Assembly: GCF_003386865.1 (NCBI RefSeq)
Contig: NZ_QTUA01000001.1
Span: 2,666,001 to 2,730,000, forward strand
Origin: Calidifontibacter indicus
GTDB taxonomy: Bacteria; Actinomycetota; Actinomycetes; Actinomycetales; Dermatophilaceae
Direction of reading: 5' to 3'
DNA: 64,000 nucleotides
Shown: positions 18,871 through 59,124 of the stretch, piece after piece
Numbering within the stretch: position 1 is the first letter of the stretch
Layout of the letters: each line of letters opens with the position of its first letter
Position numbers and translations under genes: made by a program
The notes under the pieces: generated by a model
Database searches by the model: none
What the model was told of the DNA's origin: nothing
What the model saw: the letters and a program-made list of their open reading frames with translations, nothing else

Positions 18871-18887
18871 GGGGCCGAGCAGGCCCC
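18871..18887 (-). promoter_or_regulatory. Hairpin between metX riboswitch and its ribosome binding site
   Basis: GGGGCC, loop TGCTC, GGCCCC forms a 6-bp GC stem just after the SAM-IV aptamer and 6 bases before the GGGAGAGG ribosome binding site (18864-18857). It is the likely expression platform. No U tract follows, which favours translational control or a short-stem pause over classical termination. Confidence 0.55.
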
Positions 18888-18998
18888 GCGCTTGCCGCAC
18901 GACCGATGGGGTCGGCGACCTTGTCCTCACCCGGGGCACCCCACGCGGTGGAGGGTTGCCGCCCAGCAAGCCGGGGCTTGTCGCTGGGACTCTTGACC
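18886..18998 (-). promoter_or_regulatory. SAM-IV riboswitch upstream of metX
   Basis: The minus strand carries the SAM-IV consensus core in order: GGTCAAGAG, the CCAGC/GCTGG P2-type stem, GGCAACCCTCC, a GTGGGGTGCCCCGGGTGA block and a terminal GGCAAGCGCG. It aligns almost base for base with the element at 31044-31154 in front of metY. SAM-IV elements are known from actinobacteria and bind S-adenosylmethionine. Location in front of metX agrees with feedback control of methionine synthesis. Confidence 0.92.
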
Positions 18999-31043: not shown

Positions 31044-31154
31044 GGTCATGAGTGTCAGCGCGAAGCCCCGGCTCGCTGGCCGGCAACCCTCCGCCGCGGT
31101 GGGGTGCCCCGGGTGAAGACCTGGCCGAGGTGCAGATCATCTCGGCAAGCGCGG
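31044..31154 (+). promoter_or_regulatory. SAM-IV riboswitch upstream of metY
   Basis: Same ordered core as the metX element: GGTCATGAG, a CAGC/GCTGG stem, GGCAACCCTCCGCCG, the GTGGGGTGCCCCGGGTGA block, GAAGACC and the final GGCAAGCGCGG. Both SAM-IV elements of this window thus control consecutive steps of the same pathway. Confidence 0.92.
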
Positions 31155-31175
31155 ACGCGAAGAGGTCGCGCCGCC

Positions 31176-53843: not shown

Positions 53844-54728
53844 TCAGCCGCGTGCCGTGCCCCGGGCAAGACGCGGCGCGACGGCGACGGCGAGCATGCC
53901 CGGCCCCACGTGCGCACCCAGCGCCGCGCCGAGTTCGACGAGCACGATCTGGCGCGCGTTGGGCACGTCGGCGGCGAGCTGCTCGGCGAGCACCTCGGCC
54001 CGCTGCTGGGCATCGAGGTGCTGCACCGCGATGTCGACGCCGTCGGTGTCGGGTTCGTCGCCGATCTCGGCGGCGGCCTGGACCGCGAGCGCCTGCAGTC
54101 GAGTCAGCGCCTTGCCCGACGTGCGCACCTTCTCCAGCAGTTCGATCGCGCCGTCCTGGATCGTCAGCAGCGGTTTGATCGCCAGCGCCGAACCCAGCAC
54201 CGACGACGCGCGCCCGATCCGGCCGCCGCGGCGCAGATGCTCGAGGGTGTCGACATAGAGGAAGCTGCGCGAACGGTCGGCGACCGCACGGGCGATCTGC
54301 TCGACCTCGTCCGCGCTCGCGCCTTCCTGGGCCGCGTTCGCGGCCGCCAGCACCGCGAACCCCATCGCCATGCCCATCGATCCGCTGTCGACGACGCGCA
54401 CGTTCGCCGCGCAGCTCTGGCCGGCGATCTCGGCCGAACTGACCGTCGCCGACGACTTGGCCGACAGGTGCACCGACACGATCTCGTCGATGCCGCGTTC
54501 GAGGAGATCCTCGTAGGCCTGCAGGAACGCGCCGGGCGACGGGCGGGACGTCGTCACCTGACGGTGGTCACGCAACGCCGCCGCGACCTGCGTGGGGGTC
54601 ACGTCGACACCCTCGTCGTACGACGTGCCGTCGATGGCGACGTGCAACGGCACGACGAACACCCGCCCGCGCACCACCCGTCCGGGCGGCAGGCAGGCCG
54701 AAGAGTCGGTGACGACGGCGACGGTCAT
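53844..54728 (-). CDS. DegV-family fatty-acid-binding protein
   Basis: DegV proteins bind a fatty acid; homologs (FakB) present it to a fatty-acid kinase FakA. From ATG 54728 it has 294 residues, typical of the family, with [13 protein letters not shown] at the N-terminus, [37 protein letters not shown] and the basic [10 protein letters not shown] segment. ATG overlaps the leuS stop as ATGA. A longer frame starting inside leuS is a shadow. No fakA gene is in the window, so a FakB role is inference. Confidence 0.92.
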
Positions 54729-57625
54729 CCGGCGACGATGTTGACCAGCTTGGGAGCGCGCACGATCACCTTGCGAACTTGCTTGTCGCCGATCGCCGAC
54801 TGCACCCGCTCGCTGGCCAACGCGGCGGCCTCCAGGTCGGCGTCGCTGATGTCGGCGGCCACCTCCAGCCGGTCGCGCACCTTGCCCAGCACCTGCACCA
54901 CACAGGTCACCTTGTCGTCGACCACCAGCGCCGGGTCGGCGTCCGGGAAGGCCTCGAAGGTGACGGTCTGCTCGTGCCCCAGGCGGTGCCACAGCTCTTC
55001 GGCGATGTGCGGCGCCAGCGGCGCGACCATCTGCACCAACGGCTCCACCACCGCGCGCGGCGGGGCGGCCAACCGGGTGACAGCGTTGTTCAGCTCGATC
55101 AGCTTCGCGACCGCGGTGTTGAACCCGAAGTGCTCGAAGTCGCGGCGCACGCCGTCGACGGTCTTGGCCAACAGCTTTGCCGTGTCGGCGTCAGGCGCGT
55201 CGTCGGTGACGCGCAGGTCGCCGGTCTCCTCGTCGATCACGTTGCGCCACAGGCGCTGCAGGAACCGCTGCGAGCCGACCACCGCTCGGGTCTCCCACGG
55301 GCGGGACTGGTCCAGCGGACCCATCGACATCTCGTAGACGCGGAAGGTGTCGGCGCCGTACTGGTCGCACATCTCGTCGGGCGTGACGACGTTCTTCAGC
55401 GACTTGCCCATCTTCCCGTACTCCCGGGTGACCCTCTGGCCCTCCCAGGTGTACGTGGTCGTGTCGCCGTCGACGTGCTCGACGACCTCGGCGGCCGGCA
55501 CCGGTTGACCGCGGTGGTCGCGGAAGGCGTAGGCCTGCACGTAACCCTGGTTGAACAGGCGACGGAACGGCTCCTCGCTGCTGACCTGCCCCAGATCGAA
55601 CAGCACCTTGTGCCAGAAGCGCGCGTACAGCAGGTGCAGCACGGCGTGCTCGACGCCACCGACGTAGAGGTCGATGCCGCCCGGGTCGTTCGCGACACCG
55701 GCGCCGGCGCCACGTCCCGGACCCATCCAGTACTGCTCGCACCCCGGGTCGACGAACCGGTCGTGGTTGTCGGGGTCGGTGTATCGCATTTCGTACCAAC
55801 AGGATCCGGCCCACTGCGGCATGACGTTGGTCTCGCGGCGGTAGGTCTTCGGACCGTCACCCAGATCCAGCTCGACCTCGACCCAGTCGGTGGCGCGGTC
55901 GAGCGGCGACTCCGGCATCGAGTCGGCGTCATCGGGCTCGTAGGTCTTCGGCGAGTAGTTGGCCACCTCCGGCAGCTCGACCGGCAGCATCGACTCGGGC
56001 AGCGCGTGGGCGACACCGTCGGCGTCGTAGACGATCGGAAACGGCTCGCCCCAGTAGCGCTGCCGGCTGAACAGCCAGTCGCGCAGCTTGTAATTGATGG
56101 TGCCGCGGCCGATGCCGTGCTCCTCCAGGTGGGCGATCATCGCGGCCTTCGCGTCGGCAACTCCCATGCCGTCCAACGAGATCGCGTCGTTCGAGGAGTT
56201 GATCGCCGGACCGTCACCGGTGAACGGGGTGTCCATGTCGTGGCCCTCGGACGGCTGCACCGTGCGGATGATCGGCAGCTCGAACGCCTTGGCGTAGTCC
56301 CAGTCACGAGCGTCCTGGCCGGGCACGGCCATGATCGCGCCGGTGCCGTAGCCCATCAGCACGTAGTCGGCGATGAAGACCGGAATCGCGGTGCCGGTCA
56401 ACGGGTTTCGTGCAAAACCACCGGTGAAGACACCGGTCTTGGACTTCTCGTCGGCCTGCCGCTCGACGTCGCTCTTGCGCGACGCCTCCAGCCGGTAGGC
56501 GGCGACGGCGTCCGCCGGGGTGGCCGCCCCACCGGTCCAGACCGGCTTGGTGCCTTCCGGCCACGCGTCCGGCACCAACTCGTCGACCAGCGGGTGCTCG
56601 GGAGCCAACACCATGAAGGTCGCACCGAAGACGGTGTCGGGTCGGGTCGTGAACACCTCGATCAGCTGACCGGTGCGCTCCACGGGGAACTCCACCGCGG
56701 CACCGGTCGACCGACCGATCCAGTTGCGCTGCATCGCCTTGATCGACTCCGGCCAGTCCAGGCGGTCGAGGTCGTCGATCAGCCGGTCGGCGTAGGCGGT
56801 GATGCGCATCATCCACTGCGGCAGGTTGCGCTTGAAGACCGGGAAGTCGCCGACCTCGGTCAGCCCCTCGTTGGTGACCTCCTCGTTGGCCACCACGGTG
56901 CCCAGGCCGGGCGCCCAGTTGACCGGCGACGCCGACTTGTAGGCCAGCCGGCGGCCGTCGATCTCGGCGCGCTGCTGCGCATCGGTCAGCTCGGCCCACG
57001 CACGCCCGTCGGCCGTTGCGACCTCACCGGCGGCGAACGCGTCGACCAGTTCGCTGATCGGACGGGCCTTACCGGCGGCGTCGTCGTACCAGGCGTTGTA
57101 AATCTGCAGGAAGATCCACTGGGTCCACTTGTAGTAGTCGGGGTCGATCGTCGCGAACGAACGGCGGTCGTCGTGCGACAGACCCAACTGGCGCAGCTGA
57201 CGACGGTAGGTGGTGATGTTCTCCTCGGTCGTCTTGCGGGGGTGCTGCCCGGTGCGCACCGCGTACTGCTCGGCCGGCAGACCGAAGGCGTCGAAGCCCA
57301 TCGTGTACAGCACGTTCTTGCCGGTCATGCGCTGGTAGCGGGCGATGACGTCGGTGGCGATGAAACCCAGCGGGTGACCGACGTGCAGGCCGGCGCCCGA
57401 GGGGTACGGGAACATGTCCTGCAGGAAGAACTTCTCCATGGCCTGCACGGTTGCCGCGTCGTCGCCGGACCACGGACCGCTGGGGTTCGGGGCGTGGAAA
57501 GTGCCCTGCTCCTGCCAGTTGTCCTGCCAACGGCGCTCGATCTCACCGGCCAGTGCGGCGGTGTAGCGGTGCTTCGGGGTGTCCGAGTTTCCGGTCGCGC
57601 CGGTCATGCTCGTCGTGTCAGTCAT
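54725..57625 (-). CDS. leuS: Leucyl-tRNA synthetase LeuS
   Basis: LeuS charges tRNA-Leu. The 966-residue class I synthetase has the HIGH motif as HVGH (81-84, [17 protein letters not shown]), an internal editing domain, [19 protein letters not shown], and the KMSKS loop as K738-MGKS-742, the common actinobacterial variant. ATG 57625 has GAGGG upstream. A candidate leucine attenuator precedes it (57693-57795). degV overlaps its end, so degV, and perhaps comEA/comEC, may be partly cotranscribed. Confidence 0.97.
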
Positions 57626-57692
57626 CGTGCCCTCACGTCGTGTCGTCTGCTGGTGTATGCCGCGGCACCGGACGTGCCCGTTCGTCTGTCAT

Positions 57693-57723
57693 GAAGAAGC
57701 CCCCGCCGATCAGGGCTAGGGGC
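57693..57723 (-). terminator. Attenuator terminator upstream of leuS
   Basis: On the minus strand GCCCC (57723-57719), an inner GCC/GGC pair and GGGGGC (57704-57699) form a GC-rich hairpin followed by TTCTTC, 67 bases before the leuS start and 23 bases after the leader peptide stop. An alternative pairing of GCCGCGC (57756-57750) with GCGCGGC (57731-57725) lies between leader peptide and terminator. Confidence 0.6.
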
Positions 57724-57746
57724 GGCCGCGCCGAGGTCCGATCTGT

Positions 57747-57782
57747 TCAGCGCGGCGTTCGAAGCAGAAGCAGGCGATGCAT
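57747..57782 (-). CDS. Leucine-rich leader peptide of leuS
   Basis: ATG 57782 opens an 11-codon frame encoding MHRLLLLRTPR and ending in TGA, with four consecutive Leu codons (CTG CTT CTG CTT). The peptide is followed by mutually exclusive hairpins and a terminator before leuS, the layout of classical transcription attenuation by leucyl-tRNA supply. No ribosome binding site precedes it, but a TATTCT hexamer 7 bases before the ATG predicts a leaderless start. Attenuators of this kind are known for leu and ilv genes in actinobacteria; the exact folding was not computed. Confidence 0.7.
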   Translation of the reverse strand: MHRLLLLRTPR

Positions 57783-57789
57783 GTCGTTC

Positions 57790-57795
57790 AGAATA
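57790..57795 (-). promoter_or_regulatory. -10 element for the leuS leader
   Basis: TATTCT on the minus strand, 7 bases before the leader peptide ATG. The remaining part of the divergent gap (57796-57885) shows no other clear element. Confidence 0.5.
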
Positions 57796-57885
57796 TCGCA
57801 GCCGGTCACCGGCCCTGTCCGCCCACCGGATCGGCGATCCCCCGGCGGATTTCGTCCCCCGCTCAGGCCCTGAGAGAATGCCCCC

Positions 57886-59124
57886 ATGCCCGCTCCGACC
57901 CGTACCGATGTTCTTGTTGTCGGAGCCGGCCCCGCCGGCTCGGCCGCCGCCACCTGGGCGGCCCGCCACGGCCTCGATGTCGTGCTCGCCGATGCCGCCA
58001 CCTTCCCCCGCGACAAGACCTGCGGCGACGGCCTCACCCCGCGCGCGATCGGCGAACTCGACCGGCTCGGCCTCACCGACTGGGTGCGCGCACACACCGT
58101 CAACCAGGGCCTGCGCGCCCACGGCTTCGGCCAACGCCTCGAGTTGCGCTGGCCCCAGGTCGAGGGACTTCCCGACTGGGGCTCGGCCGTGCCCCGCACC
58201 GAACTCGACGACCACCTGCGCACCCACGCGCTGAAGGCCGGCGCCGTGGGCGTCGAGGACGCTCGCGCCGTCGACGCCCGGGTCGAGGGCGGACGGGTGC
58301 GGGCCGTCACCTTCCGCGGCGCCGAGGGCACCTTCGAGATCGAGGCCGAGCGGGTCGTCGTCGCCGACGGTGTGCGTTCGCCGTTGGGCAAGGTGCTCGG
58401 CCGCGAGTGGCACCGCGACACCGTCTACGCGGTGGCGGGCCGCTCCTACATCGACTCCACGATGAGCAACGACCCGTGGATCTCCTCCCACCTCGAACTG
58501 CGCGGCGAAGAAGGTCAGATCCTGTCCGGCTACGGCTGGGTGTTCCCACTCGGCGACGGCTCGGTGAACCTCGGCGCGGGCACGCTCGCCACCGCCAAGC
58601 GTCCGGCCGACATCGCGATCAAACCGCTGATGCAGGTCTACGCCGACACGATCCGGGACGACTTCGGTCTATCCGGTGAGTTGCGGATGGGTGCGTCGGC
58701 GCTGCTGCCGATGGGCGGAGCCGTCTCGAACGTCGCCGGCCCCAACTGGGCGCTCATCGGCGACGCCGCCGCCTGCATCAACCCGCTCAACGGTGAGGGC
58801 ATCGACTACGGGCTGGAGACCGGACGTCTGGTCGCCGACATGCTGCTGGCCGGAGACGACCTGCAGACGGCGTGGCCTGCGCTGCTGACCGACCACTACG
58901 GCGAGGCCTTCTCGGTGGCGCGCCGCCTGGCCGGCCTGTTCAGCAACCCCAAGCTGCTCACCGCCCTCGGCCCGATCGGCATGCGCTCCGACCTGCTGAT
59001 GACCCTCGCGCTGCGCTGGATGGGCAACCTGGTCACCGACGACGACCGCGACCGCGCCGCCCGCGTGTGGCGCTGGGCCGGACGCCGCTCGGTCGGCCTC
59101 GACTCCCGCCCGCCGTTCAGCTGA
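57886..59124 (+). CDS. Geranylgeranyl-reductase-family flavoprotein
   Basis: A 412-residue FAD-dependent oxidoreductase: Rossmann motif DVLVVGAGPAGSAAATWAA (8-26), the KTCGDGLTPRA segment with the family cysteine, GWVFPLGDGSVNLGAG, and the second FAD contact ALIGDAAACINPLNGEGIDYGLE. Family members saturate isoprenoid chains; the best known actinobacterial one is MenJ, which reduces one unit of the menaquinone tail. Menaquinone reduction is likely here but not proven, as no men genes are in the window. It diverges from the leuS leader and converges on rpsT with a shared terminator. Confidence 0.9.
   Translation: MPAPTRTDVLVVGAGPAGSAAATWAARHGLDVVLADAATFPRDKTCGDGLTPRAIGELDRLGLTDWVRAHTVNQGLRAHGFGQRLELRWPQVEGLPDWGSAVPRTELDDHLRTHALKAGAVGVEDARAVDARVEGGRVRAVTFRGAEGTFEIEAERVVVADGVRSPLGKVLGREWHRDTVYAVAGRSYIDSTMSNDPWISSHLELRGEEGQILSGYGWVFPLGDGSVNLGAGTLATAKRPADIAIKPLMQVYADTIRDDFGLSGELRMGASALLPMGGAVSNVAGPNWALIGDAAACINPLNGEGIDYGLETGRLVADMLLAGDDLQTAWPALLTDHYGEAFSVARRLAGLFSNPKLLTALGPIGMRSDLLMTLALRWMGNLVTDDDRDRAARVWRWAGRRSVGLDSRPPFS

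Follow-up and report, generated by a model that had tools for sequence, protein, structure and literature searches.

The leuS leader locus

The window, the entire 64-kb stretch of DNA analyzed, contains a short leader region between leuS (start 57625) and a divergent menaquinone-reductase-like gene (start 57886). Identification of leuS was based on TIGR00396 (873.7 bits versus a cut-off of 548.4). The parts of the locus are given below, with the basis of each in brackets where recorded.

57797-57800, minus strand: conserved TGCG upstream of TATTCT (sequence and relatives)
57790-57795, minus strand: -10 promoter element TATTCT (sequence)
Between the -10 box and the ATG, minus strand: 7-nt spacer GAACGAC (sequence)
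57747-57782, minus strand: leader open reading frame (ORF) of 11 codons, MHRLLLLRTPR and stop, predicted to be leaderless (sequence and relatives)
57762-57773, minus strand: control codons CTG CTT CTG CTT (sequence)
57747-57756, minus strand: region 1, GCCGCGCTGA, formed by the last leader codons and the stop codon and beginning 5 nt past the Leu run
57725-57734, minus strand: region 2, TCGGCGCGGC, with a 10-bp pairing to region 1 (sequence and covariation)
57699-57723, minus strand: terminator-like GC hairpin, one base past region 2, with a 9-bp stem and a single bulged A
57693-57698, minus strand: imperfect U tract TTCTTC (sequence)
57630-57636, minus strand: leuS Shine-Dalgarno-like GTGAGGG (sequence)
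54725-57625, minus strand: leuS, leucyl-tRNA synthetase, 966 aa (TIGR00396)

The leader ORF reads ATG CAT CGC CTG CTT CTG CTT CGA ACG CCG CGC TGA (57782-57747, minus strand), and the loop between regions 1 and 2 is 12 nt long. An initial annotation had proposed a leucine attenuator with a leaderless peptide at 57693-57795. These coordinates fit, and TATTCT 7 nt before MHRLLLLRTPR, the four tandem Leu codons, and the GC hairpin with TTCTTC before leuS (57723-57693) are all present on the minus strand. The pairing described after the peptide is also there, but it extends over 10 bp rather than 7. A classical -35 element was looked for upstream of TATTCT and not found, and positions 57500-57950 gave no Rfam match up to an E of 1. 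Elsewhere in the window, SAM-IV riboswitches are located at 31044-31157 (plus strand), before an O-acetylhomoserine sulfhydrylase-like ORF, and at 18883-18998 (minus strand), before a homoserine O-acetyltransferase-like ORF.

Conservation of the leader and its RNA helices

Regions upstream of leuS were sampled from relatives in the family and order, from an even sample of the class, and from named genomes. More than 80 carried a short Leu-run leader 5 to 8 nt after TAnnnT; equivalents occur in most family relatives and in many actinomycete families beyond it. Approximately 35 of these loci are from Streptomyces, so independent lineages are fewer than loci. The peptides range from one identical to that of the window (L003) to the Streptomyces peptide MRAVRLLLSEPR, and the Leu run and hairpins are kept across actinomycete families, as the initial annotation had suggested checking. 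No such leader precedes several of the leuS genes, among them those retrieved from mycobacteria.

A second, independent leader definition (CTNCTN followed by GCCG) yielded 86 leaders. TAnnnT was found within 35 nt of the leader start in 84 of these and 6 or 7 nt before it in 78, while 85 of the 86 lacked a Shine-Dalgarno sequence before the leader ORF. The -10 spacing and the missing Shine-Dalgarno sequence make a strong case, at the level of sequence, that the leader ORF is translated leaderless. Nearly every leader from the relatives retains TGCG just 5' of TAnnnT, which resembles an extended -10 motif, with no clear -35.

The possibility that such a frame arises by chance was estimated from control flanks (492 kb of strand) and the window, counting frames of 5 to 25 codons with ≥3 tandem Leu codons and a start 5 to 8 nt after TAnnnT. 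None occurred in the control sequence, and the two strands of the window together held exactly one, the leuS leader. A covariance model built from the leuS leader (model R1) was searched in the same genome and in 246 genomes of the phylum. The genome itself contained a single strong match (63.4 bits), before leuS, with the next at 17.4 bits. Across the 246 genomes, every match better than 1e-6 is upstream of leuS, including divergent LeuS types with 35 to 40% identity. Weaker matches to model R1 (L202, L203, and L205) lie in other actinobacterial groups upstream of acetolactate-synthase-like genes, named by eye from their translations; these leaders have Val-Leu-Ile codons and the same layout, with a helix abutting a terminator, as the leuS leader.

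Among 43 diverse leaders, 96.5% of region 1:2 cells were paired and 4 of the 10 pairs had changes on both sides; covariation over both helices was higher than in any of the 500 shuffles or any slid control. The helix equivalent to the terminator was 87% paired across relatives, and RNAalifold recovered the same two helices unprompted. When region 2 was swapped between loci, pairing fell only from 9.67 to 9.43 of 10 because the sequences are similar, and the column-wise covariation test is the stronger one. Region 1 has an invariant GCCG core in relatives. Spacing was also conserved among the 86 leaders: the Leu run is followed by region 1 after 5 nt in 64, and region 2 is followed by the terminator after 0 to 2 nt in 74, with a variable loop of 8 to 68 nt between regions 1 and 2. 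Some relatives have an 8-codon leader, with TAG where others have CAG, yet retain GCCGCG as untranslated RNA, which indicates that the conserved Pro-Arg reflects a constraint on the RNA rather than on the peptide. The hairpin and a T tract abutting region 2 are kept in nearly all relatives, most of which have 4 to 6 T.

It could be argued that the short frame has no regulatory role, its Leu run being accidental and the hairpin a constitutive terminator or stability element. Whole-leader folding energy, which was no different from that of shuffles (z -0.75), is consistent with this reading and was dropped as evidence of structure, leaving conservation and covariation. Nevertheless, equivalents across families, the covarying helix, and the absence of any comparable frame in the 492 kb of control strand indicate that the leader is not accidental, and the nonregulatory explanation is highly implausible.

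The Leu run ends in CTT in 50 of 55 distinct leaders, and CTT accounts for 34 of 2,132 Leu codons in leuS at 30 sampled loci and for none of 64 in leuS of the window. In two leaders (L038 and L075), Gln codons take the place of most Leu codons, with the RNA structure and CTT retained. One possible reason for this conservation is that CTT is a rare codon dependent on a minor tRNA; the conserved codon makes it possible to test directly which leucine tRNA the leader senses.

Proposed attenuation mechanism

Comparison with relatives strongly supports the proposal of a leucine attenuator with a leaderless peptide. The leuS leader is likely to be a ribosome-mediated transcription attenuator that senses charged leucine tRNA, and the leader and its two hairpins probably switch leuS on under leucine shortage. 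Transcription would begin at the leader ATG or beside it, with 70S ribosomes initiating on the leaderless 5' end, as the -10 spacing and the missing Shine-Dalgarno sequence suggest. With ample charged tRNA-Leu, the ribosome at the stop codon would cover region 1, region 2 would stay unpaired, and the terminator hairpin would form, stopping transcription before leuS. When leucine is short, the ribosome would wait at CTG/CTT, leaving region 1 free for formation of the 10-bp region 1:2 helix; the pairing is borne out by covariation, and its timing is what we infer. Situated 0 to 2 nt before the terminator, this helix would hinder closure of the terminator stem within the polymerase's RNA exit channel, which is the weakest step, and transcription would then read through into leuS.

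With a simulated ribosome, the median probability of the region 1:2 helix was 1.0 for a stall at the first Leu codon; it fell to 0.73 when the ribosome stood at the last Leu codon and to 0 at the stop codon. The effect thus has the expected sign, as starvation frees the helix and plenty hides it. The probability of the terminator stem was ~1 at every ribosome position because the helix and terminator have no base in common, so thermodynamic folding alone yields no switch. The imperfect U tract of the window, the Gln-codon leaders L038 and L075, the leuS genes that lack the leader, and the cited results on S. coelicolor ilvB and leuA also speak against the attenuator reading. The initial annotation had envisaged a complete layout with exclusive structures, to be verified by RNA folding; instead, the two hairpins abut (usually 0 to 2 nt) and fold together. 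A systematic search for conserved helices found no antiterminator that both covaries and overlaps the terminator, and the mutually exclusive, base-sharing terminator and antiterminator of a classical ribosome-mediated attenuator were not found. As the helix only abuts the terminator, steric hindrance at the polymerase is suggested. A switch by abutment, in which the helix blocks closure sterically while sharing no base and the sensor is chiefly the rare codon CTT, is offered tentatively. If the abutting-helix reading is true, it would represent a simpler attenuator design, apparently common to the ilvB leaders found here in other actinobacterial groups.

Classical 1:2/2:3/3:4 attenuation would apply if a base-sharing antiterminator had been missed, for example, one in which CTNCTT binds GAGGGG in the 3' arm of the terminator. 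This pairing of Leu codons with the 3' arm (6 bp; columns 22 to 27 with 111 to 116) can form in 93% of cells and was the sole other conserved candidate overlapping the terminator, and both antiterminator and terminator hairpins have been reported before Streptomyces leuS (PMC1262725). However, it was rejected as the antiterminator since, although frequent, it lacks any covariation (observed values equal those of shuffles). Furthermore, a ribosome stalled at the Leu codons would mask the strand needed for pairing, and CTC would pair better with the 3' arm than the conserved CTT, so that pairing does not explain the conservation of CTT. Classical strand exchange is therefore rather unlikely.

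Ribosome position might alternatively determine exposure of the downstream RNA through Rho or translation coupling, with region 1:2 serving only to time pausing. The imperfect U tract of the window (TTCTTC) would suit such a mechanism, and Rho-dependent attenuation has been proposed for other actinobacterial leaders (PMC1262725), but retention of the hairpin and T tract next to region 2 in nearly all relatives makes this explanation improbable.

Comparison with known leaders

Seliverstov et al. (2005, PMC1262725) predicted leuS attenuators for S. coelicolor and S. avermitilis, and an RNA-seq study of S. lividans TK24, which mapped the start, listed a leaderless leuL2, MRAVRLLLSEPR, before leuS (PMC8079986). 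The published leuL2 peptide was recovered among the Streptomyces homologues here. Like these, the window has a short Leu-run peptide, predicted to be leaderless, a hairpin, and a U run directly before leuS; the position before leuS, the tandem-Leu short ORF, and the terminator hairpin with an (imperfect) U run are those of leuL2. It differs in its peptide (MHRLLLLRTPR), its actinomycete family, its shorter loop (12 nt), and its imperfect U tract.

The leaderless peptide had been regarded as an unusual form of attenuation, but the form is not new, as leaderless leaders, leuL2 before leuS among them, are already reported in S. lividans (PMC8079986), and comparable ones in C. glutamicum (PMC11857589) and mycobacteria (Canestrari et al. 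2020, as cited in PMC9094748). The leader peptide of Corynebacterium glutamicum ilvBNC, which begins one nucleotide from the transcript end, shares with the window leader a start close to the 5' end, predicted in the window, a branched-chain amino acid context, and a terminator hairpin, but its antiterminator overlaps the terminator (PMC11857589), whereas the window helix only abuts it. The LEU element before actinobacterial leuA also has a Leu-run leader peptide (PMC1262725), which in S. lividans is the leaderless leuL1 (PMC8079986). Unlike the window, it involves a pseudoknot and pairing of Leu codons with the Shine-Dalgarno sequence, has no typical terminator, and precedes leuA (PMC1262725). 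In mycobacteria, leaderless polycysteine frames are reported to act as attenuators (Canestrari et al. 2020, as cited in PMC9094748). As predicted for the window, a leaderless short ORF there governs the operon behind it through a run of codons, but these are Cys codons; mycobacterial cys leaders also differ from the window in having no conserved terminator hairpin (PMC1262725). Experiments on the S. coelicolor ilvB and leuA leaders, as cited in PMC1262725, departed from classical attenuation.

The window leader is probably a further leuS attenuator, its distribution being wider and its covariation support greater than reported in PMC1262725 and PMC8079986. The predicted Streptomyces leuS attenuator is thereby extended, with covariation support, to many actinomycete families, and its conserved leader parts do not match the textbook strand-exchange switch.
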